Below, piece by piece: positions 49,410 through 64,000 of a stretch of DNA of 64,000 nt. The notes beneath the pieces were generated by a model. That model ran no database searches and was not told the origin of the DNA. It saw nothing but the letters and a program-made list of their open reading frames with translations. Within the stretch, counting starts at the first letter, position 1, and each line of letters opens with the position of its first letter. The DNA comes from Verrucomicrobiaceae bacterium E54 (GTDB lineage Bacteria; Verrucomicrobiota; Verrucomicrobiia; Verrucomicrobiales; Akkermansiaceae): contig JAKZES010000001.1 in NCBI GenBank assembly GCA_022548915.1, positions 186,001-250,000 on the forward strand, in the 5' to 3' direction. A program made the position numbers and the translations under genes.

Positions 49410-49832
49410 CTATTCGTTGTTTTCGCCGACGGCTTCGATGATGCCGCCGCCCGCGGCGATGGCCTTGATCACGGGTTCAAATTGCTCCTTGGTCAGCTGG
49501 GCATCGCACTTGAACTGAACGTGGCGCTGGTCGTCGGAGACGGTCTTGGTCAGCAGCGCACGGACGCCCATCTCGACCTCCTTGACGCTGTCGACCTGGT
49601 AGCCGTCGAAGAAGATCTCGCCGTTCTCATCCACGGCGATGCGTGCGGCCACGGGGATCTCGATCTTCTCGACGAACTCGGAGAAGGGCAGGGTGAGCCG
49701 GGCCTTGCTGTTGTCCTTGCTGACCTCGCTGCAGACCATGAAGAAGATGATCAGCAGGAACGCGATGTCGCCCATGCTCGCGATGGGCACGGGCACGCTG
49801 CGGCGTTTGCGACGTTGGAGGTGCTTCTTCAT
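49410..49832 (-). CDS. exbD: ExbD/TolR-family protein (first)
   Basis: 140 aa from the ATG at 49832. A basic N-terminus (MKKHLQRRKRRSVPVPIASM) is followed by the ExbD membrane helix GDIAFLLIIFFMVCSEV, with the proton-path Asp in MGDIAF. A periplasmic domain follows (RIAVDENGEIFFDGYQV). ExbD subunits combine with ExbB to use the proton gradient. The start is 1 bp from the stop of the second exbD gene, so the two are likely produced together and may form a hetero-oligomer. Confidence 0.92.
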   Translation of the reverse strand: MKKHLQRRKRRSVPVPIASMGDIAFLLIIFFMVCSEVSKDNSKARLTLPFSEFVEKIEIPVAARIAVDENGEIFFDGYQVDSVKEVEMGVRALLTKTVSDDQRHVQFKCDAQLTKEQFEPVIKAIAAGGGIIEAVGENNE

Positions 49833-49833
49833 C

Positions 49834-50247
49834 CTATTCGTCCTCCTCGACGATGGCGACGACCCCATGATGCTCGCTGATCGAGGCCAGGGCCTGGAAA
49901 TAGTTTTCGTAGGGGGTGCCGCTCGCGGATTCGAGCATGATGACCCGCTTGGATGGATCCTTCTCGGCGAGTTCGAGCGCCGCGAGGCGTTCGTTGAGTT
50001 GCTCGATGGTCACCTTGCGGTCATTGAGGAAAACCTCGGCTCCGCGGAGGTTGACGATGGGGGTCTTGTCCGACTGCGGCTGGCTGGTCTTCTCGCCGGT
50101 GGGAAGGTCGGCGGTGATGGTCTTGACCTTCACCAGGGTGGTGGCGACCAGGAAATAGATGATCAGCAGGAACGCGATATCCGAGAACGAGCCGGTCGGG
50201 ATTTCGCCCGAGCGGTGTTTCTTCTCACGTGTGCTGCGCCGTCTCAT
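49834..50247 (-). CDS. exbD: ExbD/TolR-family protein (second)
   Basis: 137 aa from the ATG at 50247. The basic start MRRRSTREKKHRSGEIPTGS is followed by FSDIAFLLIIYFLVATTLVK, the membrane helix with the essential Asp (FSDIAF). The periplasmic part is NLRGAEVFLNDRKVTIEQLNERL and ends acidic. It is paired with the adjacent exbD gene, as in many ExbB-ExbD-ExbD loci. The upstream intergenic region holds a long inverted repeat separating it from exbB. Confidence 0.92.
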   Translation of the reverse strand: MRRRSTREKKHRSGEIPTGSFSDIAFLLIIYFLVATTLVKVKTITADLPTGEKTSQPQSDKTPIVNLRGAEVFLNDRKVTIEQLNERLAALELAEKDPSKRVIMLESASGTPYENYFQALASISEHHGVVAIVEEDE

Positions 50248-50410: not shown

Positions 50411-51055
50411 TCAGTGGTGCGTGAGGATGAACTCGACGAGTTCGCTGTTGGCTTCTTCGATCTCGAGTTCGATCTCGTCGCTCCAGCGGTTGAAGACGCT
50501 CTGCGGGATGACGGCGAGCAGGGCGATGATCAGGCCGGCGGCGGTGGTGACCATCGCCTCGGAGATGCCGTTGGCGACTTCGCCGCCACCACCCGCCATG
50601 CTGCCCGCCTCGGCGAGCCCGGAGAACGAAGCGATCATGCCCGTCACGGTGCCGGTCATCCCCAGCAGCGGGGCGGCGGTGCCGATGGTGGTCAGGACGT
50701 CGAGCCGCTTGTTGACCACGCTCATCGCCTGCGCGCTGTAGTCGTCCATGACCTGTCCGACCACCAGCCGCATGGTCTCGGAAGACTCGTTCTTGCCCTT
50801 CAGCTGGTCGTAGGACCGGAGGCCGGCGAGAATGACGGAGGCGAGCGGTCCCCGGGCGGCCTTGCATTCCTCCATGGCGGCGGAGAGGTCGTTCTTGCGC
50901 AGGTGGGCCAGCACCTTCGACCGGAGCGAGCGGGTGTCGATCTTGCGGTTCGCGCGGAAGGCCAGCCAGCGGTCATAGACCACGGCAAGGCTGATCAGAC
51001 TGCAGATCATCAGGGGAACCATGATGATCTTTCCTTCAATGATGTGTTCTAGCAT
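50411..51055 (-). CDS. exbB: ExbB/TolQ/MotA-family proton channel protein
   Basis: 214 aa. Membrane helices: IIMVPLMICSLISLAVVYDRW near the N-terminus, and VLTTIGTAAPLLGMTGTVTGMIASF and ISEAMVTTAAGLIIALLAVIPQ in the C-terminal half, with the family motif GTAAPLLGMTGTVTGM. With the two ExbD proteins it would form an inner-membrane motor driving a periplasmic partner, here probably the TonB-like protein and the giant TPR proteins of the same operon. It overlaps the upstream small gene by 7 bp. Confidence 0.94.
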   Translation of the reverse strand: MLEHIIEGKIIMVPLMICSLISLAVVYDRWLAFRANRKIDTRSLRSKVLAHLRKNDLSAAMEECKAARGPLASVILAGLRSYDQLKGKNESSETMRLVVGQVMDDYSAQAMSVVNKRLDVLTTIGTAAPLLGMTGTVTGMIASFSGLAEAGSMAGGGGEVANGISEAMVTTAAGLIIALLAVIPQSVFNRWSDEIELEIEEANSELVEFILTHH

Positions 51056-51419: not shown

Positions 51420-54400
51420 TCAGCGGCTCTCCTTGAGTTGTTCAATCATGCGTTCGCGGGCCTTGTTTTCCTCCTCGATGATCCGGGCGAAGACCGGGTC
51501 GGCGAGGCGGCCGCGGGCATACTTGGCCCACTTGCTGTCGGGGAAGTCGAAGGTGACGCGACGGTAGAGCTGGTAGGCCTCCCGGATGCCGTTGCCACGG
51601 GCCTTGTAGTTGTTTTCGGACATCAGTCCGACCCAGCGTTCGTGACTGATGCCGCTCCAGTAGATGGCCTGGGCGCGGATGTCGGGGCCATCGTATTGCT
51701 CGCTGTCGATGACCTGCTGGAACTGCACGAGGGCTTCCTCATACTGGTGGGCCCGCATGAAGTTCTGGGCCGCCCGCAGTCCGGCGAGTCCGGCGAGCGG
51801 ATCATCCGGGAAGCGTTCCTGAAGCTTGGAGAAGACCATCGCGGCATTGAGGAACTCCGGGTAGCTCAGGTCGTCGAGACGCAGCACCTCGGCTTTCGAC
51901 TCATCGTCCTCGTTCTCGCGGAGCAGGTCGGCCTGCTCCTTGAACTCCTGGCCCTTCTTCTGGAAGTAGCCACCGAGACGGGCCATCACCGTCGGGATAA
52001 GCTCGTCATTGGGATACTTGTAGGCGAGCTTCACGTACTCTTCGACCGAGTTCTCGATCTCGCCCATCTTCTCGTAAACCAGGGCGGTCTTGAACTGGGC
52101 CTTCGGGGCGAACTCGGTGTCCGGATAGTCGGTGGGGATCTTGGAGAAGCGGGCGAGCGCGTCCTGGTACATCGGCAGCTTGCTCTCGTCGTTCTTCGCG
52201 AGGTCGGCGAACTCCTGCGAAAGGTTGCCGAGCAGGTATTCGGCGTGCGCCTTGAGTTCGTCGTCGCGGTGGGTGGCGAGAGCTTCGGCCAGAAGCTTGC
52301 GGGCCTGGCCGATCTGCCGGCGGGCAAGGCTTTCCTCGTCCATTTCGCGGTGCTTCTTGGCGAGCTCGAAGTAGCACTCGGCGAGGGTGAAGCCCGTCCG
52401 CACCGCCATCTCGTCGCCGGTGAAGCGCTTGCTGAAGGGTTCGATGACGCCGTCGGCGCCCTTGTTGACGTTCACGGCGAAGCTCTGGTCCTCGTAGCTG
52501 ACGGTGATGTCGTCACCATAGCGGACCGGGAAGCCGTTGAGCGCCACGGGCGGAAGCTCGGCGGGAATCTGTTCGTCGGCGTAGGCAACGGTGAAGACAC
52601 CCTTGAAAACCCCCGAGTGACTTTCGGTCTCGCGCACTTCGTAGCGGGTGCTGGCACCGCTGGTGCCTTTCAGCGTGACGATGGCATTGTCGCGCTCCGG
52701 GCCGCGGTCGAGACCGGGAGCAAGCAGCCGGAGATAGATCTTTTCGCCGACGTAGGCACTGGTGAGCGCTTCGCGATAGCCGTTCTCCATGACGTCGAGG
52801 AAGGCATCGCTGCCGACTGTGAAGCGGGTGGTTTTCCAGTGCACCTTGCCGTCCTGGTCCTGCCACGGGAAGCCGACATGGACGATGTCGCCTGCCTTGA
52901 CGGCCAGGCCGTCGGGAATGGCCGAGGAGGGGAGTTCTTCGGCAGACTTGGTGGCGAAGCTGCGGGTCGGCGGGTCGCCGAGGATCAGGGGAATGCTGAA
53001 GGAGAACCGACCTTGTTCGAGCGGGGGTTCGTTGGTCGGTGGAGTGGGCGGCGTGGCGATGTGGTAGCCGCGGGGCACATCCAGTTCGCCGGAGCCGAGT
53101 CTGCCGGTGAGCTTGAGCGTTCCGGGAACCGTGACGTCGAATTCCTTGCCCGGGGCCTTGGCCGCTTTGCGGGCCTCGTCGGTTTGGACGTAGGCGCGGA
53201 TCTCGCTGCTGCCCGCCAGTGCGAGGTGAGGGGCGACCACATCGAAGCGGAGGTTGGCGCCGATGACCGCGGTGAGGGGCTTGTCGACCGTGTCGGCGGA
53301 GTCGACATGGTGGTAGGACAGCTCACTGCGGGGATGGAAGACCTCGGTGCCGCCGGGCCGGCGGGCCTTTTCATCGTCCTCGCTCGGGGTCGGGGTGTAG
53401 GGGAGAACCTCGCTGGAAAGGGCGTAGGCACTCAGCAGCGGCAATTCATATTGCGCGTGGGTGATCGTGACCTCGCGATCCGCGGGAATGCCGGGGTCGA
53501 GGTTCTCCACGTCGCGGTAAACGGCCGTCAGGACTCCGCCGGGAGTCAATTGAATCTCGGAGTCGCGGGAAGGCTCGCCTTCCACCGGAAAGACCCGGCC
53601 CATGAACACGCCGCTGTGTTTCTCGGTCTCGACGGCTTTCAGCGTGACCGAAGCTCCACTGCTGGAATTCACCACGAACTCGATGGTGTCGCGCTCGGGA
53701 CTGCCATCGAGGTCGGCATCTTCGATCACGATCGCGACGGCATCGTCCATGCGGAAGCGGCGGATCGGTTCGAGGACCAGTTCCCGTTCGCCTTCCTTGT
53801 TGGTTTCGTAGTTCAGGAAGGACGCGGTGATGGTGCCGGTGTTGTAGGCGACGCCGAGGCTGCGCTGATGGCGGTCGCGGTTCGGCGTGGCGGTCACCGG
53901 GTCTTCGTAGCGGGCCACGATCTGGTCACCGGGGAGAACCTCGAGCTGCATGTTCTCGCGCAGCGCCTTGTAGTCCTGCGCCACCGGCAGGAGTTGGTTG
54001 TCGTCGCGGTCGGTCAGGGTGACCTTGGTGATTGCCGGAGTCACGCCCTCGAAGCCCTCGATGACGAGGCGAACCATGCGGGCCTGGGTCTTGTCGCCGA
54101 AATCGATGGTGAAGCCCTCGTCGCCGGAGGTGATGGTTGCGGGCTGTGTGATGGCCGCCCGCACGCCTTCGGGGAAGGTCGCGGGGTCGAACATGGAGGG
54201 CGGGCAGGGCACCAGTTCCGCCTTGCCGGGCTCATCACAGAGCAAGGCCGGCTTGCGCTTGAGAAACTTGTCCCGGCCGTCGTGGCACCAGAATTCGATC
54301 TCGTGCAGCCCGGGAGCGAGCTCACGTTCGATGAGCAGCGGATCCTCCGATTCCTCGTCGGCGGGTTCCCCGTTGAGCAGGAAGATCGTGCGGATCACTC

Positions 54401-57400
54401 CCTTGTCATCGGTGCGCGGCAGGCCCGTGAGCTGGAACCTGCGGATGGCCGCCGCCGGTTGGTAGAAGAGGGCGCGGTAGCGGATCAGGCCCGAGTAGCC
54501 GGGGTGACCGGTATTCACGACCGGGAGTTCACCGTCGGCGGCGAGGTCCGGGACATAGGCGGCAAGGTAGTTGCAGTTCGGCCGGACGGAACCGAGTTCC
54601 ATCTTCTCGAGCCAATCCTCAGGCAAGTCACTGCCTTCGGGTTCGGATACCGGGATGCCCTCGCGGAAGGTCGGGAAGGAGGTCATCTGTGGTTTTCCGT
54701 TCCAGGGCGCCTCGTCGTCGGGGAAGCGGGCGCGGGTCGTCCACTGGTCGCCGTTCATCGAAGTCTGGAAGACGAAGTGGGTGGGCTGCTGACCGGTGCC
54801 GCCGGAGGCGACGGTCATCCTTGCCACGCCGACGTTGTCGTTGAGGTCGACACCGAAGATGCGGGTGGCCTCGCGGTCGCCGACCTGACCCTGCCAGCCC
54901 GGGTAGTCGAGGGCGCTGATGGCCATGTTCGGATCGCGGCCGGGGGCGCTCTCCGAAGCGAATGCCAACGCCTGGGCACCCGTCGTCGGCACGATGGCCT
55001 GGAACTCGCCGCTGAAGGGCGCGGTCTCCTTCAGCACGAGCTGGCGGATCTCGTCGCCGCTGGATGCCTGCATGGAAACGGTGATCTCATCGATCCCGGG
55101 CGAGGCGCTGCGGTCGGGGTCGGTGACCCGGAGATAGACCGGGTTGCCGGGGCGCACCGCCCGGGTGCCGAGGGCGGCCTGGGCGGTGGAAAGGCCGAGT
55201 TCCTCGATGTCGAGGCGGCGCTCGCCCTGGCGCGGCGGGAAGGCGCCCGCGCTGAAGTCGACCATGGCGTCCGACGCGACCGTGATGACGAGGTCAGGAT
55301 CGTCCGGCAGGTCGTCCATCTTCTTCCGGAAGCGCTCCGAGTATCCGAAGCGGATCTCGTCGACGCCGAGCACCTGCAGCACCTTGTCATTCGGATTCGG
55401 CGCGCCGAGTTCGGTGGGCACCTCGGCGCGGAACTTGTCCTTGCTGTCACCGAGTTGATAAAGAAGCACCCGTACCTTGTCGCCGGACTTTGCCCAGATC
55501 TCGACCTCGATGTCGGCGCCGACGCCGGAGACCCGCAGGGTGGGGTCGCGCAGGTTGATCTTCACCGCCTCACCCGGGACGATGACGGTGTCGTCCTGGG
55601 AGGGGCCGAGTTCGATCTCGCTGGCTTCGACCAGCTTGCGCATCTGGTAGTGGATCTGGCCACGCAGGATCAGCGCGTCGGGGTGCTTTGGATCGACCCG
55701 CAGCACCGCCTCGAGTTCATCGAGTGCCTCGGCGAAGTTTTCCTGGTCCATGAGGACCTCGGCACGGGCGTAACGGACCCGCTTTCGGAATTCCGGATTC
55801 GGGAGGCGCATCAGGTTGTCGAGTTCGGTCAGGGCGGCTCCGAAATTGCGGGAAACCCGGTCGACTTTCACCGATCCCAGGGCGGCTTCCAGATGCATCG
55901 AGGTGCCCTCGTATTCCGCGGCGTCGGCGACCTTGCGGAACCACGCGCGGGCGGTCGGAAGGGCGCCCTTGCGGAAAGCGAGTTCGGCATAGGCGATCTT
56001 GAGCGCGGCGTCCTGTTCGGGGCTGAAGGTGCCGGCGGCCTGCCGCGACCAGATGGTGAGTTCCTTCACCAGTTCCTCGGCACGTTCTTCGTGTTCTTCC
56101 TCGATGTTCCGCTCGAGGAGCCAAAGTCCGTAGCCCACCGAGAGCGAGCGCAGCACTTCCTTGAGTTGATCGGCGTGGGCATCGTACAGGACCCACGCCG
56201 TGTCACGGTTGTCCTGCACGAACTCGGCGTTCGATTTGTAGATGGGGTAGCTCGGGTCGTTCTCGGCGACCGGGATTTCCACCGCGCCGACTTCCATGGC
56301 GGCCTTGCCGGCCACCTGACGCAGGAGTCCGGCGATTTCGGACGGGCGTCCGTCGCCGGCATTGGCGAGCGCCCGGCCGGCTACACTTCGGCGACCACTG
56401 CGGGCGACGGTCATGGCGACCGAGGGCGAACCGGCTTGATTGGCAGCCTCGGCGAGGCGCGCGAGCGCGTCGGCACCGCGGTAGTGCCGGCCATCATCCG
56501 TCGCGGCGGCGGCATGCCAGAGTCCGGCGGCGTAGGGTTCGAGCGGGCTCCATCCGGAGGACTCCCGCGCCTCGTCGGCGATGCGCTGGACGAGCGGCTC
56601 GTAGCCCTGCCTCGAGGGAGGGGGGGCGACCGGGGAGTTCACGGAGAACAGGGAGAGGACCAGTGAACGGGTTTCGGGGGACCACTCCGGAAGCTTGGCG
56701 ACGGGTTCGAGGCCGATGACGGTGACCGTGTCGGGTGCGTTCGCCGCACCCTCGACCGCCGACTTCAGTGCCGACTCGACCTGGGCCGGTGTGGCGTCTT
56801 GCGGCAGCGCGAGGAGGTCGCGGGAAACGAAGCGCGGATCGGCGCTCCCGCACTGCGTGGTCAGGAAGCCCGGCCCGAAGATCTGCTCGCGGGCCGCGAG
56901 GGAGTGATAGGCGGGGTCGACCGCGGCGTAGGCCGATGATTCGAACAGGGCCTTCATCGCTTCCCGGGACTCGGGCTTCTCGGGGTCCACGCTGTGGAGC
57001 CAGAGGCCGAGGATTCGCTCGGACAGCTTTCCGGCCTGAGCCTGGCGGGTGAGGATCTGCTGGAGATGTTTTGCAAACTCCGGCAGGGCTTCCCGCGCCT
57101 GTTTCTTGCCCCACCGGTCCCAGCTTTCATCGAACCCGGGACCGAACCGCAGCCTCGCGTAGGTGCTTCCGCCAAAACTCGACTGTTCGATGGCCCGCCG
57201 GAACAGGCTGGAGCGGGTGTCGTCCTCGTCGGCGACCAACCGGATCAACATCACTTCCCGGTCGGCATCCGGTGCCTGGGCGAACAAGGCATCCCACAGC
57301 GGGAGGGCCCCCGGCGTGGAGGGGTTGGCGGAAAGAAGGTCGGCTTGCAGGGTCTTGAAGGCGGCGAGGCGCTCGTTGTTCTTGGCCTCCTTCGAGACCT

Positions 57401-58784
57401 GCTGCTTGAGCTTCTGGTAGCGGCTGTCGAGGTTGTTGTATTTGACGTTCGGCGCGTTGTGATCCTCGCCTTCACGCTCGAACATACCGCTGTGCCACAG
57501 TCCGTGGGTGAGGGTCTTGATATCGTCGAAGCGCCACATCTCCGACTTCATCATCTGGTCGGCGGCGGCGCTGTAGCGTCGTTCCGGGCGGGCCCATGCG
57601 CGCACCATGGCCGCCTGGGCGTGAGGATTGCGGGCGAGATGGGGGGCGATTTCCTTCGCGACTTCGGGCGTGAGCGTGGCATCGAAGAGGGGGACGTCGG
57701 GAGCGGCAAGCGAGTTGAAGACCTGCGGCAGATCCTTCACGAGGGCCCGGAGTTCATCCTTGGAGAACATGTAGTCGGCAACCTTCCGGCCCCTGGCCTG
57801 GTCGACGGTCATTTGGAGCAAGGCCTGTGCCTGCTGTGGTGGAAGTTGCCGGAGTGTCTTGAGGATTGGCGCGGCCTTGGCTTCGCGGCCCGGGGTGACG
57901 AACGAGTTGAAGACCCCGGAGTCCCCGGCGTTGAAATTCATCCAGCCGATCATCGCGGCCCGGGATCCCTCGAAGGGAGCCGCCGCAATCATGGCTTCGG
58001 CGACCGGCAGCGCGGAGTTGAAATGGTCTTCAGGGATCGGCTTCTTGGCCCCGGCGAGTTCGGCGGCGGGCTTGCACAGTGGAATGATGGTCTTTGCCCA
58101 TGCGATCCGCTCCTTGATCCCGGCCGGTGTCCTCCGGGCGGAGGCGAGGGCATCGAGCTCCTCGTAAAGGCGCTCGCTCTCGTGACTGAAGGTCTCGAAC
58201 TCGCTCATGAGGAACTCGAGACTGTCCTCGAAGCGATCGAGCGGATCGTTGCTGTTCAGGATCGCGGCATGCCAGCGGGCGAGGGCGACGAGATCCTTGC
58301 GTTCGCGGGCCCTGTCGAGGAACCAGCGGTCAAACTGACGGGCGCGTCCGAAGGTCCGCAACCGGGCCCCGTCCTCGCGCATGAAAAGATAGGCCGCTTC
58401 GGGATCACCGAGGTGGTTGATGAGCAGGCGGTAGGTCGCCGGCACGGCTTCGCCGGCGATGCGGCCGTCCACCTTGGGATCCGTGAGCAGCTTGCGGTAG
58501 AAGCTCGCGGCCGATGACCATTCACCGGCCCGTTCCGCCGAGCGTGCGGCCTGGAAAAGGGTGTCATTGGAGAGCCCCGGATTGGCCGCGAGCCACGGCT
58601 TCACTGCGGCGAAGGCGAGGGCGCTGCGGTTCTCGGCAAGTCCGGACTTGAGGATCTCCGCGACCGATCCTTCGGTCTGGGTTGCCGCGTCCTCGAAAGC
58701 CGCGATGCGGTCGTCCAGCGGTGCTGAGATGAGCGCGGCAGACAGGAACCACGAATGGACACCAATGAACACGAATGTTTTCAT
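51420..58784 (-). CDS. Giant exported TPR/beta-repeat protein (paralogue 2)
   Basis: 2,454 aa from the ATG at 58784; an in-frame ATG six codons earlier is possible. The signal peptide MKTFVFIGVHSWFLSAALIS is partly encoded by a repeat arm (58744-58776). Residues ~20-1100 are helical, TPR-like (RARAEVLMDQENFAEALDEL, LRVDPKHPDALILRGQIHYQ). Residues ~1100-2090 are beta domains bearing a recurring E-T-x-x-x-(S/T)-G-x-F-x-G motif (KETAPFSGEFQ, VETEKHSGVFMG, RETESHSGVFKG). The C-terminal ~360 residues are YbgF/BamD-like TPRs (YPDTEFAPKAQFKTALVYEKMGE). It is homologous to the upstream giant. It probably resides in the periplasm or on the outer membrane, energised by the downstream ExbBD. Function unknown. 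Confidence 0.88.
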   Translation of the reverse strand: MKTFVFIGVHSWFLSAALISAPLDDRIAAFEDAATQTEGSVAEILKSGLAENRSALAFAAVKPWLAANPGLSNDTLFQAARSAERAGEWSSAASFYRKLLTDPKVDGRIAGEAVPATYRLLINHLGDPEAAYLFMREDGARLRTFGRARQFDRWFLDRARERKDLVALARWHAAILNSNDPLDRFEDSLEFLMSEFETFSHESERLYEELDALASARRTPAGIKERIAWAKTIIPLCKPAAELAGAKKPIPEDHFNSALPVAEAMIAAAPFEGSRAAMIGWMNFNAGDSGVFNSFVTPGREAKAAPILKTLRQLPPQQAQALLQMTVDQARGRKVADYMFSKDELRALVKDLPQVFNSLAAPDVPLFDATLTPEVAKEIAPHLARNPHAQAAMVRAWARPERRYSAAADQMMKSEMWRFDDIKTLTHGLWHSGMFEREGEDHNAPNVKYNNLDSRYQKLKQQVSKEAKNNERLAAFKTLQADLLSANPSTPGALPLWDALFAQAPDADREVMLIRLVADEDDTRSSLFRRAIEQSSFGGSTYARLRFGPGFDESWDRWGKKQAREALPEFAKHLQQILTRQAQAGKLSERILGLWLHSVDPEKPESREAMKALFESSAYAAVDPAYHSLAAREQIFGPGFLTTQCGSADPRFVSRDLLALPQDATPAQVESALKSAVEGAANAPDTVTVIGLEPVAKLPEWSPETRSLVLSLFSVNSPVAPPPSRQGYEPLVQRIADEARESSGWSPLEPYAAGLWHAAAATDDGRHYRGADALARLAEAANQAGSPSVAMTVARSGRRSVAGRALANAGDGRPSEIAGLLRQVAGKAAMEVGAVEIPVAENDPSYPIYKSNAEFVQDNRDTAWVLYDAHADQLKEVLRSLSVGYGLWLLERNIEEEHEERAEELVKELTIWSRQAAGTFSPEQDAALKIAYAELAFRKGALPTARAWFRKVADAAEYEGTSMHLEAALGSVKVDRVSRNFGAALTELDNLMRLPNPEFRKRVRYARAEVLMDQENFAEALDELEAVLRVDPKHPDALILRGQIHYQMRKLVEASEIELGPSQDDTVIVPGEAVKINLRDPTLRVSGVGADIEVEIWAKSGDKVRVLLYQLGDSKDKFRAEVPTELGAPNPNDKVLQVLGVDEIRFGYSERFRKKMDDLPDDPDLVITVASDAMVDFSAGAFPPRQGERRLDIEELGLSTAQAALGTRAVRPGNPVYLRVTDPDRSASPGIDEITVSMQASSGDEIRQLVLKETAPFSGEFQAIVPTTGAQALAFASESAPGRDPNMAISALDYPGWQGQVGDREATRIFGVDLNDNVGVARMTVASGGTGQQPTHFVFQTSMNGDQWTTRARFPDDEAPWNGKPQMTSFPTFREGIPVSEPEGSDLPEDWLEKMELGSVRPNCNYLAAYVPDLAADGELPVVNTGHPGYSGLIRYRALFYQPAAAIRRFQLTGLPRTDDKGVIRTIFLLNGEPADEESEDPLLIERELAPGLHEIEFWCHDGRDKFLKRKPALLCDEPGKAELVPCPPSMFDPATFPEGVRAAITQPATITSGDEGFTIDFGDKTQARMVRLVIEGFEGVTPAITKVTLTDRDDNQLLPVAQDYKALRENMQLEVLPGDQIVARYEDPVTATPNRDRHQRSLGVAYNTGTITASFLNYETNKEGERELVLEPIRRFRMDDAVAIVIEDADLDGSPERDTIEFVVNSSSGASVTLKAVETEKHSGVFMGRVFPVEGEPSRDSEIQLTPGGVLTAVYRDVENLDPGIPADREVTITHAQYELPLLSAYALSSEVLPYTPTPSEDDEKARRPGGTEVFHPRSELSYHHVDSADTVDKPLTAVIGANLRFDVVAPHLALAGSSEIRAYVQTDEARKAAKAPGKEFDVTVPGTLKLTGRLGSGELDVPRGYHIATPPTPPTNEPPLEQGRFSFSIPLILGDPPTRSFATKSAEELPSSAIPDGLAVKAGDIVHVGFPWQDQDGKVHWKTTRFTVGSDAFLDVMENGYREALTSAYVGEKIYLRLLAPGLDRGPERDNAIVTLKGTSGASTRYEVRETESHSGVFKGVFTVAYADEQIPAELPPVALNGFPVRYGDDITVSYEDQSFAVNVNKGADGVIEPFSKRFTGDEMAVRTGFTLAECYFELAKKHREMDEESLARRQIGQARKLLAEALATHRDDELKAHAEYLLGNLSQEFADLAKNDESKLPMYQDALARFSKIPTDYPDTEFAPKAQFKTALVYEKMGEIENSVEEYVKLAYKYPNDELIPTVMARLGGYFQKKGQEFKEQADLLRENEDDESKAEVLRLDDLSYPEFLNAAMVFSKLQERFPDDPLAGLAGLRAAQNFMRAHQYEEALVQFQQVIDSEQYDGPDIRAQAIYWSGISHERWVGLMSENNYKARGNGIREAYQLYRRVTFDFPDSKWAKYARGRLADPVFARIIEEENKARERMIEQLKESR

Positions 58785-59174
58785 AGTACGACTCGTTTCC
58801 ATTCCAGTTTGGCTCGTTTGAAATTGAGAATGAGGCCTACCTTTAGACCGGTGATTTTCAGATAGTTCATCATCTGGCCCAATTCATGATTTGTGATGCG
58901 ATCGATGACTTTCGTGTCCACGACGACTTGATCATGGGTGATCAGATCAGGAATGTATTCGCCCACCTGCACCTCTTTGTAGGTCACGGCGAACCGGGGC
59001 TGTTGCTTGAATGGGATGCTTTGCAGGCCGAGTTCGACTGCCAGTGCGTTTTCATAGGGTTTTTCCATCAACCCATGCCCAAGTCCCTTGAGGACTTCTA
59101 ATGCACAACCGACCACGCCGTATACTTCCTCCTTGAGGAACAATTCGTGTCCATTCGTGTCCATTCGTGGTTCC
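58744..59174 (-). mobile_element. GxxExxY cassette with 33-bp inverted repeats
   Basis: The ends are inverted repeats: 58744-58776 (ggaaccacgaatggacacca...) and the complement of 59142-59174 (ggaaccacgaatggacacga...), 30 of 33 positions identical. The right arm itself is made of 10-bp units (attcgtgtcc twice, then attcgtgg). Between them lies only the GxxExxY gene. It has no transposase, so it would be a non-autonomous, MITE-like cassette. It sits exactly between two paralogous giant genes of one operon. Confidence 0.65.
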
Positions 59175-59176
59175 AT
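58781..59176 (-). CDS. GxxExxY protein (PD-(D/E)XK-like)
   Basis: 131 aa from the ATG at 59176 (MEPRMDTNGHELF...); an ATG at 59164 is an alternative. The family motif is GHGLMEKPYENALAVEL (GxxExxY). EVQVGEYIPDLITHDQVVVDTKVID carries a PD...DxK arrangement like PD-(D/E)XK nucleases. Function of the family is unknown. The first codons are encoded by the right inverted repeat. The start is 2 bp after the stop of the upstream giant, and the stop overlaps the ATG of the downstream giant (ATGA), so the gene is fully integrated into the operon's translation. Confidence 0.93.
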   Translation of the reverse strand: MEPRMDTNGHELFLKEEVYGVVGCALEVLKGLGHGLMEKPYENALAVELGLQSIPFKQQPRFAVTYKEVQVGEYIPDLITHDQVVVDTKVIDRITNHELGQMMNYLKITGLKVGLILNFKRAKLEWKRVVL

Positions 59177-59178
59177 AT

Positions 59179-62100
59179 TCACTGTCCGGACTCCAGTCGT
59201 TCGAGTTCCAGTTCGGTCTCCAGTTTCAGGAGTCGGTCGGTTGAAAGCTGTGCCCGGGCGTAGGCCGCCCATTCACTTTCGGGGAAGTCGTAGGTGAGGC
59301 GCTTGAAGATCGAGTAGGCCGCCATCTCCTGGCGCAGGTCCTGGTAGCACATGCCGACCCAGTACATCGCCTGGGCGCGGACCTTGGGTCCGTCGTAACC
59401 CTCCTCGGTGATGACCCGCTGGAAGGCGTCGACAGCTTCGGCGTTCTTGCCGGCGCGCATGTAGGCCTGACCGGCGCGCAGTCCGGCGGGGCCTGCCAGT
59501 TCGTTGCTCGGGAAGCGCTGCTGCAGGCGGCCGAAGATGCTGGCGGTCTTGAGATACTCGCGCTGGGCCAGCGTCATCAGGGCGGTGCCCTCGTACTGGG
59601 CGTCCTTGTCGTCCTCGCCCTTGGCAAGCAGTTCCTTGGCCTGGGCTTCGAGGCCTGCGGCCTTCTTCAGGAAATGGCTGCCGAGCCTCAGCATCGAGGT
59701 CGCGAGGAACTCGGAGTCGGGATACTTGTAGGCCAGCTTCACATACTCCTGCGCCGCGATGTCGGGTTCCTTGAGGGCTTCGTAGACGGTGGCGATGCGG
59801 TACTGGGCGCGCGAGGCGTGGATGGTCTGCGGGTAACTCCCGGTGACGGTCATGAAGCGCGACAGGGCGGCGCGGAAGCGGGTCTCCCTGGTCTCCTCAT
59901 CCTCGGCGGCGATGGCCTCCTCCATCGTCAGTGTGCCGAGAAGATACTCGGCGTGTGCCCGGGTGTCCGGGTCGCGGAACTCGTCCATCGCCTTGGAAAG
60001 AAGCAGCTTGGCACTGGAATACTCCAACCTGGCCTTCTCGGTCTCGCCGAGCTTGCGGTGGCGCTTGGCCATTTCGAGATAGGCCTCCGCCAGCGAGAAC
60101 TGGGTCCGCATGCCGATCTCCTCGTCTTCGTAGGTCTTCGAGAAGGGCTGGATGGTGCCATCGGCTCCCTTGCTGATGGTGACCATCAGGGTCTCGCTGT
60201 CGTTGCCGTTGGCATCGGTGTAGCGTGCGGCGATGGTATCGCCGTAGATCACCGGGAATCCTTCGCGGCGAACATCGTGTTCCTCGGGCAGGGCTCCGGC
60301 CTCCTTGGCATAACCGATGAGATACTCGCCCTTGAAGATACCGGTGTGCGGCCCGCTTTCACGGAGCTCGACCGAGGCCTTGGCGCCGGACTTGGCCTGC
60401 ACGATTGCGGTCACGGTGTCCATGGCATCGCTGACGTCGGCGCCGAGGTCGACCACGCGCAGGTTCAGGCTTTCCCCGACGTAGGCGCTGGTCATCGGCT
60501 CGCGGTAATCCTCCGCCATCAGGTCGAAGGTGCCGTGCGTGATCACCCGGGTCGAAGTCGTCAGCCATTTCTTGTCGCCGCCCGGTGTTTGATACTGGAA
60601 TCCAAGGTGGATGCGGTCGCCCGGCTGGACGACCAGGCCGCTGCTGCGGGCGAGCAACTCCTCCGCCGCGGCCCGCGAGTCCTTGGCCCGTTCCTGAAGA
60701 TCCTCGCGTTCCTCTTCCGTGAGCACCCCCGAGGGAGGAAGAAGTCCGGCGACGACCGGGATTGTCAGGCGGAAGCGGTCCCGCTGCTCCGGTTCGAAGG
60801 TGTTCCAGACCGATCCGCCCGTGTAGATGGGAATCTCCGGAACGCCGTGCCATGCCCCGTGCCCCCTGGGAACCCCCAGTCCTCCCGTGACCTCGATGGT
60901 GCCCGGGATACTGACGTCGAAGCCCGCAACCGCGGCTTGTCCGCCGGCCTTGCGACCGGCGTCCGTCTGCGCATAGACCCTGACTTCGGAGCCGGTGCGC
61001 AGTGCCAGGTGGGGGGCAAGCACCTCGAAGAAAAGGCGTCTCCCGTGGGCCGCCTGGAATCCGCCTTCGGGGGCCTTGGATGCGGGAATGAGGGTGTTCT
61101 TGATCTCGTAGCGGACCTTCACGGCCTCGCTGGCAAGGCGCTCTTCGGCCTCCAGGCGTTGGCGGTGGATGGGCTCAAACCCGTGATGCAGCGTGTGCAT
61201 GCCCGGGTTGCCGTCCTCGGGTTCCCAAGGGGTGACCTCGGCGTGGGCAACGATGAACTCGGGCGGGGCGAAGGAGGCGTGATCGATGCGGGCAACCCGT
61301 TCGTAGGGAATGCCGGGCCGGTTGTTTTCCTCATCGAGGTAGCTGACGTGGATGGTGCCGCCTTCGGGCACGGAGACCTGGCCTTCACCGGTCGCAGCTC
61401 CTGCCACCGGGGTGACGAGCAACTTGAAGATGCCGGTTGAATCGCCGGTTTCCAGAGCTTCGTAGTCCCGGCCTTTCCCGTCTCCGACGGCAAGGGTGAC
61501 CTTCACGCGGTCCGGGTCGCCGGAGACGTCCATGTCCGGGTCGGTGACGACCAGCGAAAGCGGTTCGTCGTGGCGGAAGCGGATGAGCTGCTCGTAGTAG
61601 GGCATGTCCTTCCGGCGCCCTTCGTCCCAGCGGGGCTCGATGTCGGCGAACTCGACGCGGGCATCGGTGAAGGCCACATCGAGGAAGCGTTCGTGGCGCT
61701 CCTTGTCCTTGGTGACGAAGCGGTCATCGACGTAGCGGACCGAGATCTTGTCACCGGTGAGGATTTCGAGGGTGTCGTTCTTGTTGAGCGTGGCGAAGTC
61801 TTCCTTCACTGGCAGCACCGTCGCGCCATCGGGCTCGGAAAGCGTCAGCTTGTTGAGGGCGGGGACGGATCCCTCCTGCTCGAGAAACACCAGATTCAAC
61901 AGCCGGGCCCGCGAACCCGGAGCGAACTTCACCGTGAATTCGGTGCCCGCCTCGTTGGCCGTGATCGTCGCCGGGCCGTTGCGGTGGTCGAGGCTGCCCT
62001 CGGGGAAGGTGGACGGATCGAAGAAGTCGTCCGGGCAATCGACGAGCGTCTCCGGGTCCTCAAGGTTGGCCCGCAGCTTGATGCCGCGCCCGAAGCCGAT

Positions 62101-64000
62101 CGCGCAGTCCCAGCCGGTGGCCCAGATTTCGAAGTAGTGGATTCCGGGACGGAGATTGATCTGACCTTCCAGTCGGCCCGGCTGCTCTTCACTGGTGATC
62201 CGACGTCCATCCACCGCGAGCAGGAATTGCGGGGGGTCCGACACGGACGGGTGCGTTCCCTCCGGAACCTTGTATCCGCCCAGATCGAGCTTGAAGCGGC
62301 GGGTCACGTCCCGGGCTTCATGGAAATAGCCGCGGAAGCGGTAGATCACGTGGGCGTTGTGGTGCCGGCCCTGCCGCTGCCACTTGACCTTGGCGGGAAT
62401 CGACTCGTCCAGCGCCTGCGAAGGACCGCTGACGTTTTCCGCGACGCCTGCGGCGTAGGTCTGGGTCATCCATCCCCACTCGAGGTGCTGACGGATCTCA
62501 TCGAGGTCGTAAACCGAACGCTCGTTGTTCGCGTGGAGGCGGTCGGTGTCATTCATGATGACCACCGATGGATGCCAGGGTTTCTCGATGGCGGCCTGAT
62601 TCCGGGGAAAGACGGCGATGGTGCTCATGTCGCCGGGGTTCATTCCTGTCTGCAGCGCGAAGGTCTTGAGCTTGGCGCCCTCCTCGGCGGCGGTGATGGT
62701 CAGTTCTCCGAGCGGATGGTTGTCGTTCAGGTCGACCTTGAAGTCGGGGACGACCTCCTTGGTCGGGATCGGTCGCCACGCCGGGTAGGTGTCGGCGGAC
62801 GGGCTGATCACCATGTTCGGATTGCGGCCCGGCTCGGAATTGCGGCCGAAGGCCAGCGCCTGCGCGCCGTTGGTCGGAATGCTCCCCTCGAACCAGCCGG
62901 TGTGGGTCCCGGTTTCCTTCAGGGTGACCCGTGAGATCGAGTCGCCGCTGGAGCTGCCGACGCTGACGGTCAGCTCGTCCACTTCGGGCGTGCGGCTGCG
63001 GTCGGGATCGATCACCCGGACGTGGATCGGGTTGCCGGGCTTGGCCACATTCACCAGATACCGGCCGAACTCGTCGGCGGAAATGTCGCCATTCTCCGCG
63101 CGGGCATCGGCGTCCATCGATTCGGCGGCGAGCCGGGCCTTGGCCGCGGCCTCGAGATTGTCCCGCGAACCCTTGGACTCAAGCTCCCGCATCATCGCTT
63201 CCATGTCCGCGGTGCGTTGTTCGGCTTCGGTGAGAAGCTTGCGGGCCGAGGCGATGAGCAGCGCGTCGGAGGCCACGGTGATCGGTCCGCCGCGCTTCTC
63301 GTCCACCAGGTTCATCTTCTCGAGAAAGCGCTCGGTGTAGGCGTAGAAGATCTCGTCGTCGCCGATCACCTGCAGCGTGCCGTCGTCGGCAGCGGGGGCA
63401 CCGAGGGCGGTCTTGATCTCGCCGCGGAACTTGGTCTTCTCGTCGCCGAACTGGCGCAGGAAAAATTGCTCTTCGTCGCCGGAGGTGGCCCAGACCTTGA
63501 CCTCGATTTCGGTGCCGGCACCCGAGACGGCGAGGGTGGGGTCGTTCAAGGTGACCTTGAGGTTCTCGCCGGGAACGATGCTGGCCTGCTCGGTGTTGGA
63601 GCCCAGCTCAACCTCGGTGGCTTCCATCAGCTTCTCACGCTTGAGCTGGACCTTGCCGAGGAGGATGCGGGCGTCCGGGTGGTTGGGCTCGCGGGCGAGA
63701 ATGGAGTCGATGTCATCCTTGGCGTCCACGAATTCCTCCATGTCGTAGTGGACCTCGGCGCGGGCGTAGCGGATGTCCGTCCAGAGTTCGGGGATGCGCT
63801 CGAGTTCGAGTTCGTTGAGGGTGTTCAGGGCGCCATCGAAGTCCCTGGCAAGACGCTCCGCTCCCGCCCGGCGCAGGGTGGCCTGGTGCCGCAGGGGGAC
63901 CTCGGCGAAGTCCTCGTTGTTCTCGGTGCGGGTGAAGATCTCATGCGCCTGCCGGAGCTGGCCGCGCTGGATGGCGATGTCGCCGTAGGCGAGTTCGATG
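59179..64000 (-). CDS. Giant exported TPR/beta-repeat protein (paralogue 1), 5' end outside window
   Basis: At least 1,606 residues; the frame is still open at base 64000, where it reads IELAYGDIAIQRGQLRQAHE, matching the TPR region of the second giant (IAYAELAFRKGALPTARAWF). An in-frame ATG at 63741 is not the start. The region contains TPR helices, then beta domains with the E-T-G/S-x-x-(S/T)-G-x-F motif (KETGTHTGWFEG, LETGDSTGIFK, RESGPHTGIFKG) and C-terminal YbgF-like TPRs (FRAALSRFMTVTGSYPQTIH, YDFPESEWAAYARAQL). It is a tandem paralogue of the gene at 51420 along its length. N-terminal signal not visible. Confidence 0.88.
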   Translation of the reverse strand, partial: IELAYGDIAIQRGQLRQAHEIFTRTENNEDFAEVPLRHQATLRRAGAERLARDFDGALNTLNELELERIPELWTDIRYARAEVHYDMEEFVDAKDDIDSILAREPNHPDARILLGKVQLKREKLMEATEVELGSNTEQASIVPGENLKVTLNDPTLAVSGAGTEIEVKVWATSGDEEQFFLRQFGDEKTKFRGEIKTALGAPAADDGTLQVIGDDEIFYAYTERFLEKMNLVDEKRGGPITVASDALLIASARKLLTEAEQRTADMEAMMRELESKGSRDNLEAAAKARLAAESMDADARAENGDISADEFGRYLVNVAKPGNPIHVRVIDPDRSRTPEVDELTVSVGSSSGDSISRVTLKETGTHTGWFEGSIPTNGAQALAFGRNSEPGRNPNMVISPSADTYPAWRPIPTKEVVPDFKVDLNDNHPLGELTITAAEEGAKLKTFALQTGMNPGDMSTIAVFPRNQAAIEKPWHPSVVIMNDTDRLHANNERSVYDLDEIRQHLEWGWMTQTYAAGVAENVSGPSQALDESIPAKVKWQRQGRHHNAHVIYRFRGYFHEARDVTRRFKLDLGGYKVPEGTHPSVSDPPQFLLAVDGRRITSEEQPGRLEGQINLRPGIHYFEIWATGWDCAIGFGRGIKLRANLEDPETLVDCPDDFFDPSTFPEGSLDHRNGPATITANEAGTEFTVKFAPGSRARLLNLVFLEQEGSVPALNKLTLSEPDGATVLPVKEDFATLNKNDTLEILTGDKISVRYVDDRFVTKDKERHERFLDVAFTDARVEFADIEPRWDEGRRKDMPYYEQLIRFRHDEPLSLVVTDPDMDVSGDPDRVKVTLAVGDGKGRDYEALETGDSTGIFKLLVTPVAGAATGEGQVSVPEGGTIHVSYLDEENNRPGIPYERVARIDHASFAPPEFIVAHAEVTPWEPEDGNPGMHTLHHGFEPIHRQRLEAEERLASEAVKVRYEIKNTLIPASKAPEGGFQAAHGRRLFFEVLAPHLALRTGSEVRVYAQTDAGRKAGGQAAVAGFDVSIPGTIEVTGGLGVPRGHGAWHGVPEIPIYTGGSVWNTFEPEQRDRFRLTIPVVAGLLPPSGVLTEEEREDLQERAKDSRAAAEELLARSSGLVVQPGDRIHLGFQYQTPGGDKKWLTTSTRVITHGTFDLMAEDYREPMTSAYVGESLNLRVVDLGADVSDAMDTVTAIVQAKSGAKASVELRESGPHTGIFKGEYLIGYAKEAGALPEEHDVRREGFPVIYGDTIAARYTDANGNDSETLMVTISKGADGTIQPFSKTYEDEEIGMRTQFSLAEAYLEMAKRHRKLGETEKARLEYSSAKLLLSKAMDEFRDPDTRAHAEYLLGTLTMEEAIAAEDEETRETRFRAALSRFMTVTGSYPQTIHASRAQYRIATVYEALKEPDIAAQEYVKLAYKYPDSEFLATSMLRLGSHFLKKAAGLEAQAKELLAKGEDDKDAQYEGTALMTLAQREYLKTASIFGRLQQRFPSNELAGPAGLRAGQAYMRAGKNAEAVDAFQRVITEEGYDGPKVRAQAMYWVGMCYQDLRQEMAAYSIFKRLTYDFPESEWAAYARAQLSTDRLLKLETELELERLESGQ

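Follow-up and report, generated by a model that had tools for sequence, protein, structure and literature searches.

How does a giant protein come by its start codon and its signal sequence? The question is raised by a 64,000-nucleotide (nt) stretch of the genome of Verrucomicrobiaceae bacterium E54 (GenBank assembly GCA_022548915.1, contig JAKZES010000001.1, positions 186,001 to 250,000; hereafter the window), in which a small gene of the GxxExxY family lies between inverted repeats at the junction of two tandem paralogous genes for giant proteins, here called giant-1 and giant-2. A first-pass annotation of the sequence had proposed that a mobile cassette landed between the two paralogues and was adopted as a translation and export start for giant-1. 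Our analysis favours, with a probability of roughly 0.55, the reading that the window cassette belongs to a widespread class of elements, each consisting of a GxxExxY gene with a PD-(D/E)XK nuclease fold between inverted arms, and that one of these arms has become the signal sequence of giant-1.

On the minus strand, the gene order is giant-2, the GxxExxY gene, giant-1, and then genes for ExbB-like and ExbD-like proteins (Table 1). A single GxxExxY gene is indeed bounded by an inverted repeat, with arms of 32 nt that are 94% complementary (30/32) and separated by 366 nt. This locus (L019) had an inverted-repeat score of 28, whereas none of 200 shuffles tested with the same geometry scored above 13. 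The repeat is therefore real, but the length first given to it, 33 bp with 30 matches, is one base too long, since the outermost 33rd base is a mismatch. The gene inside is confirmed by two profiles, TIGR04256 (123.4 bits, cut-off 35) and PF13366 (115.7 bits, cut-off 22). The stop codon of giant-2 stands 4 nt ahead of the 5' arm, which, as predicted, encodes the N-terminus of the nuclease, whether translation begins at the edge of the arm (59176, MEPRMDTNGHEL) or inside it (59164, MDTNGHEL). At the other end, the giant-1 start codon overlaps the nuclease stop codon (58781) in an ATGA sequence, also as first read from the sequence; the same overlap is present in the relative G002 and in G377, where the nuclease gene is deleted. 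From this MKT start at 58784, giant-1 has 2,454 aa (2,460 aa for the open reading frame (ORF) from an earlier ATG). The 3' arm fully encodes its residues 4-13 (FVFIGVHSWF) and, in part, T3 and L14, in agreement with the initial estimate of about 11 residues. Judged by eye, the giant-1 N-terminus appears to be a signal peptide, with a hydrophobic stretch and small residues preceding a conserved PLDD.

An order-wide search of 386 genomes found matches in 25 of them, with the giant-1 N-terminus visible in 23; G337 and G362 hold the giant-2 type only. Arms of the window type occur at four of the 23 giant-1 orthologues, those of the source genome (G000), G002, G377, and G042. The nuclease gene is intact between the arms in G000 and G002 and internally deleted, with both arms retained, in G377 and G042. 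In all four, the hydrophobic stretch at the N-terminus is encoded by the arm, as with MRAFVSIGVHSWFLAALVAASPLDD of G002 and MKTFVSIGAHSWLLFGSLAAAAPLDD of G377, and the distance from the arm to the conserved PLD codons is 23, 26, 23, and 23 nt in G000, G377, G002, and G042, respectively. The other 19 orthologues are devoid of window-type arms and have different N-termini, so an empty-site relative with the same signal peptide, the observation that the first-pass annotation had named as fatal to its proposal, was not seen among them; in one genome (G344), the start codon of the giant directly overlaps the preceding stop codon. The unit is thus present at some orthologous sites and absent from others, although the relatives are distant and loss may also account for the arm-less ones. 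At the same junction, G253 (L085) and G290 (L095) carry another palindromic repeat family that extends into the likely signal peptide; the use of repeats at this place is consequently not unique to the nuclease cassette. G329 (L109) shows, by eye, a single arm resembling the GxxExxY type, though not of the window arm type, together with short-period repeats similar to those of the IVP family (see below) that are read into the N-terminus.

A further instance is found within this operon, at giant-2. The giant-2 start (about G000:C111:252873) falls outside the window and is preceded by a 161-bp pair of window-type arms without the gene (G000:C111:252880-253040), and its N-terminus is likewise partly encoded by an arm (MIRVHSCAFVVLLSGATLSSAAT). 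Eight relatives with giant-2-type proteins (G002, G042, G011, G337, G362, G200, G344, and G335) have no window-type arms in the stretch examined and possess other N-termini.

Table 1. Positions of the features discussed, numbered from the first base of the window.
Feature	Position	Strand	Basis or remark
giant-1, TPR-containing, with signal-peptide-like N-terminus partly encoded by an arm	51420..58784	(-)	ORF call and orthologues
giant-2, C-terminal part; upstream tandem paralogue of giant-1	59179..63741	(-)	
GxxExxY gene, PD-(D/E)XK nuclease fold	58781..59176	(-)	TIGR04256, PF13366, motif, AlphaFold2 model
5' arm (relative to the nuclease gene)	59143..59174	(-)	encodes the nuclease N-terminus
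3' arm	58745..58776	(-)	outward reading gives giant-1 residues 4-13
ATGA overlap, giant-1 start on nuclease stop	58781..58784	(-)	
MotA/TolQ/ExbB family gene, downstream	50411..51055	(-)	PF01618
ExbD/TolR family gene, downstream	49410..49868	(-)	PF02472

The cassette at giant-1 is, as far as sequence divergence can tell, an old insertion and not a recent one, because the nuclease and the giants are equally diverged between G000 and G002 at fourfold sites (differences of 0.553, n=47, and 0.567, n=624, respectively), values that may be near saturation. Protein identity between these genomes is 111/127 for the nuclease and 64% for the giants. The adoption of the cassette as a translation and export start thus keeps the support of an arm-bounded unit present or absent among relatives, whose arm forms both the start region and a signal-peptide-like sequence, but the idea of a fresh landing has to be abandoned.

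Is the window cassette an isolated curiosity? The source genome has nine GxxExxY genes, eight of which score at least 21 for inverted repeats, the ninth (L017) scoring 14, a value that its best shuffle also reached. With a threshold of 17, arms were detected at 27 of the 38 loci in a first set from the order (shifted controls, 1/297). With a threshold of 18, used for all the other sets, they were found at 59/88 loci in a fuller order set, run without shifted controls (88 loci from 96 rows, eight being left out as fragments, one contig end, and three rows below the cut-off), and at 62/79 loci in a wide sample (shifted controls, 4/700). The latter comprises the best 80 matches to one nuclease clade (AG), with 2 of 81 loci left out of the scoring at contig ends; arms were present at the one locus from a viral contig and at 61 of the 78 from genomes. 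These 78 span 17 named phyla plus one unassigned record and bear arms in 15 phyla, although most come from metagenome-assembled genomes, whose phylum labels may include contamination. Arms accompany 58 of the 80 order loci with an intact D..[ED]xK motif versus one of the eight without it (Fisher p 0.0015; one of these eight, L083, is a truncated match). Six loci with a degenerate active-site motif (L081, L082, L233, L236, L237, and L240) have no arms at score 18, and such members were possibly adopted for another role. The expectation that the window repeat would recur around other GxxExxY genes held insofar as many have matching inverted repeats, but these are not of the same sequence, each clade having its own arm type. 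Genes of another family, IVP (TIGR02436; L045-L054 and L274-L301, from the source genome and relatives), are arm-bounded at 30 of 37 loci scoring at least 18 (shifted controls, 0/292; 1 of 38 loci, the fragment L296, was left out); their arms iterate short units with sequences other than those of GxxExxY arms.

GxxExxY arms generally contain about three copies of a unit of about 7 bases, one every 8-10 nt, and their outer end is usually ACC; the 5' arm of the window has GGAACC followed by three CACGAATGGA-type units. The arms are well conserved. The 5' arm is identical at 31/32 bases in G002, and the 3' arm keeps 31/32 bases in G002, 29/32 in G377, and 29/32 in G042, whereas no 32-nt window reaches 31 identities between G000 and G002 in the nuclease ORF (0/322) or the giant (0/1,624). 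Gene conversion would account for this conservation, as would selection acting on the arm at the DNA level. The arms could also act at the RNA level, pairing in the mRNA and so setting the insert apart, in the way proposed for the termini of 23S rRNA intervening sequences. The IVP genes, which we take to be linked to those sequences, do show the same architecture; however, G-U-compatible changes are not in excess among arm mismatches (89 vs 94 in the order set, 109 vs 119 in the wide set) and Rfam has no match at 58000-60000, so we consider this explanation very unlikely and do not attribute the matching of the arms to an RNA stem. Among individual loci, each flank of L056, L198, and L202 seems to bear a whole hairpin of arm units in place of a single arm, and L218 (G006) apparently has a tandem duplication that takes in the right arm and the beginning of the following gene, with an extra arm copy in between.

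The arms change together with the nuclease clade. Their units are CACGAATGGA-like, CGCAAAG/CACAGAG-like, GGATGGATA-like, CACGGAA-like, or of other types, depending on the clade. When eight arm classes, defined after viewing the arms, are placed on the nuclease tree (56 loci), 9 changes are needed, compared with a minimum of 7 and a mean of 30.1 for shuffled labels (0/200 shuffles as low), three of the 59 arm-bearing order loci being unclassified and the label of L201 doubtful. Since vertical inheritance could also cause such agreement, we collapsed clusters with shared flanks, which left 29 loci with 7 changes (minimum 5, shuffled mean 11.6, 0/200 as low). A k-mer comparison of arms with protein identity over 57 loci, without L201 and L210, pointed the same way: rho was 0.152 with p 0.0005 (p 0.12 for the flank control), and within genomes it was 0.221 with p 0.022 (p 0.62 for the control). 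The partner arm from the same locus was strictly the best match for 36 of 57, with mean scores of 25.9 within and 12.2 between loci. At one locus shared within a genus, three arm types (assigned by eye), each accompanied by its nucleases, are found across ten of 13 genomes; the site is empty in two and holds a different ORF in one. The empty sites (L318 in G007 and L321 in G001) contain a short GC-rich hairpin that looks terminator-like by eye. Because arm type and nuclease clade covary, the arms are most likely the substrate of the nuclease.

The first-pass annotation had called for a search for the repeat with and without the gene, and both kinds exist: among the matches listed, 37 window-type arm pairs (38 rows, with one pair, L308, appearing twice) include four with the gene and 33 without. 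Six of the gene-less pairs belong to repeat copies in G272, two are long (321 and 450 nt), and the rest measure 71-179 nt. We found no clear nuclease remnants inside the gene-less pairs among the matches listed (best non-carrier E 5) and dropped the idea that they hold such remnants; the internally deleted copies of G377 and G042 illustrate one way in which gene-less pairs can arise. The preponderance of gene-less pairs in this listing, together with the other palindromic repeats at the giant-1 junction of G253 and G290, would fit an independent short repeat family that settles beside GxxExxY genes by chance, the gene being a passenger. Nevertheless, a chance association would hardly produce arm types that track the nuclease clade, or arms in only one of the eight members without an intact motif, and we hold it to be quite improbable.

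The window protein itself is a putative nuclease. It conserves the D..DTK motif in the alignment, and its AlphaFold2 model (pLDDT 97.6) confidently predicts a PD-(D/E)XK fold, although the structural matches are modest: the nearest PDB folds are Cas4 SSO0001, the alkaline exonuclease LHK-Exo, and other PD-(D/E)XK enzymes (best Foldseek E 1.0e-03, TM about 0.5-0.6). Neither PHROGs (0 families) nor the anti-phage defence models of PADLOC (0 families, E up to 0.01) match it, and we discarded a phage or defence family as its identity. Searches of mobile replicons, made with a query from the AG clade and not with the window protein, retrieved nothing from 50,697 phage records, eight matches from 72,556 plasmid records, and one viral-contig locus. 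A 23S intervening sequence does not fit either, the protein matching TIGR04256 and not TIGR02436, with the Rfam result given above. The REP/RAYT system (repetitive extragenic palindromes and their associated transposases) was also set aside, as PF13366 is the sole domain match and the fold is PD-(D/E)XK, with no HUH/Y1 transposase.

Several observations weigh against our reading. On the giant tree (22 rows), the four genomes with the cassette do not form a clade, their grouping being rejected by the approximately unbiased test (p-AU 2.8e-05); possible histories are an early insertion that was later lost in some lineages, several insertions at the same place, or exchange. A clear inverted repeat is absent from 29 of the 88 order loci, although the motif is intact in 22 of these, and the k-mer correlations are weak in size. 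No target-site duplication or clean jump was shown for the GxxExxY element, the relatives being too divergent. Six similar repeats in G272 (L302-L307) contain window-type arms, but their outer ends, like CAGGGCCACCTCATTTCGG, belong to another repeat that has inverted ends of its own, so we do not retain them as proof of GxxExxY mobility. A rough survey for other arm-encoded signal peptides yielded 15 mostly doubtful candidates, without listing the window case, and a general habit of arms feeding signal peptides cannot be claimed from it. Finally, many insertions in the order have common flanking genes across genomes, and their residence must therefore be long. The term mobile, as first applied to the cassette, consequently retains the support of an arm-bounded unit present or absent among relatives, but the mobility is inferred and has to be reconciled with these shared flanks. 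In one of the G272 repeats (L307), the same 10 bases stand on both sides, by eye a likely target duplication.

This long residence with shared flanking genes, the strong conservation of the nuclease between G000 and G002, and the scarce carriage by phages and plasmids (for the AG-clade query) are what would be expected if the nuclease were a resident gene of fixed location with a host function, for example addiction-like or in repair, and the arms its operators or expression signals. Such a gene would not readily leave empty sites in related genomes, scattered arm pairs without the gene, or internal deletions that retain both arms, and we regard this explanation as unlikely. Under the preferred reading of a nuclease-and-arm element, the nuclease would recognise its own arm units and cut or nick there, and this cutting may lead to copying or movement of the element, perhaps also of gene-less pairs in trans. 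As one outward frame of the arm is hydrophobic, insertion over a tight stop-start junction could have given giant-1 a usable signal sequence, and selection may then have retained the arm after deletion of the nuclease gene in two other lineages. More tentatively, and with somewhat less confidence than in the window case, we envisage two types of elements, GxxExxY nucleases with iterated arms that change together by clade and the IVP family with a convergent architecture, with many environmental repeats of 7-10-nt period being their arms or remains and feeding start or signal sequences to neighbouring genes.

If the preferred reading holds, GxxExxY, a family known mainly by its name, would gain a genomic setting and a testable candidate substrate, its own arm units, and nuclease clades could be paired with arm sequences like enzymes with their sites. 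The giant operon would offer a worked example of how a repeat turns into part of a signal peptide, in which the filled, the decayed, and the arm-less state can each be seen, and the elements would suggest one explanation for the stock of intergenic short-period repeats. We found no work on repeats around GxxExxY genes in one open-licence literature collection.

Known systems share parts of this organization. In REP/RAYT, an HUH/Y1 transposase gene is flanked by inverted repeats and gene-less copies are scattered between genes, a likeness to the single GxxExxY gene between inverted repeats and its scattered gene-less pairs; the GxxExxY protein, in contrast, has the PD-(D/E)XK fold and its arms are arrays of short units. 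The four-helix-bundle IVP elements come close in combining a small gene with inverted repeats of iterated short units, but differ in protein family and unit sequences. The short gene-less pairs, mostly of 71-179 nt, resemble miniature inverted-repeat transposable elements (MITEs), although the window arm type itself has no target duplication shown. In Beggiatoaceae, TAACTGA heptamers are repeated immediately before start codons (PMC4679880), much as GxxExxY arms iterate units of about 7 bases next to start codons; they are described as direct repeats, and the word nuclease is absent from the main text of that article. The closest precedent for the adopted arm is the Yersinia palindromic sequence RU-2 in YPO1552, a short mobile repeat fused in frame as part of a predicted signal peptide (Delihas, PMC2229807). 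The part of that account available to us mentions no nuclease gene inside RU-2, whereas the giant-1 arm belongs to a nuclease-bearing element, with two events in one operon and arm-less relatives that have other N-termini. The apparent adoption at giant-1 is thus a well-resolved further case, and the newer part is the element in which nuclease and arms are matched by clade.

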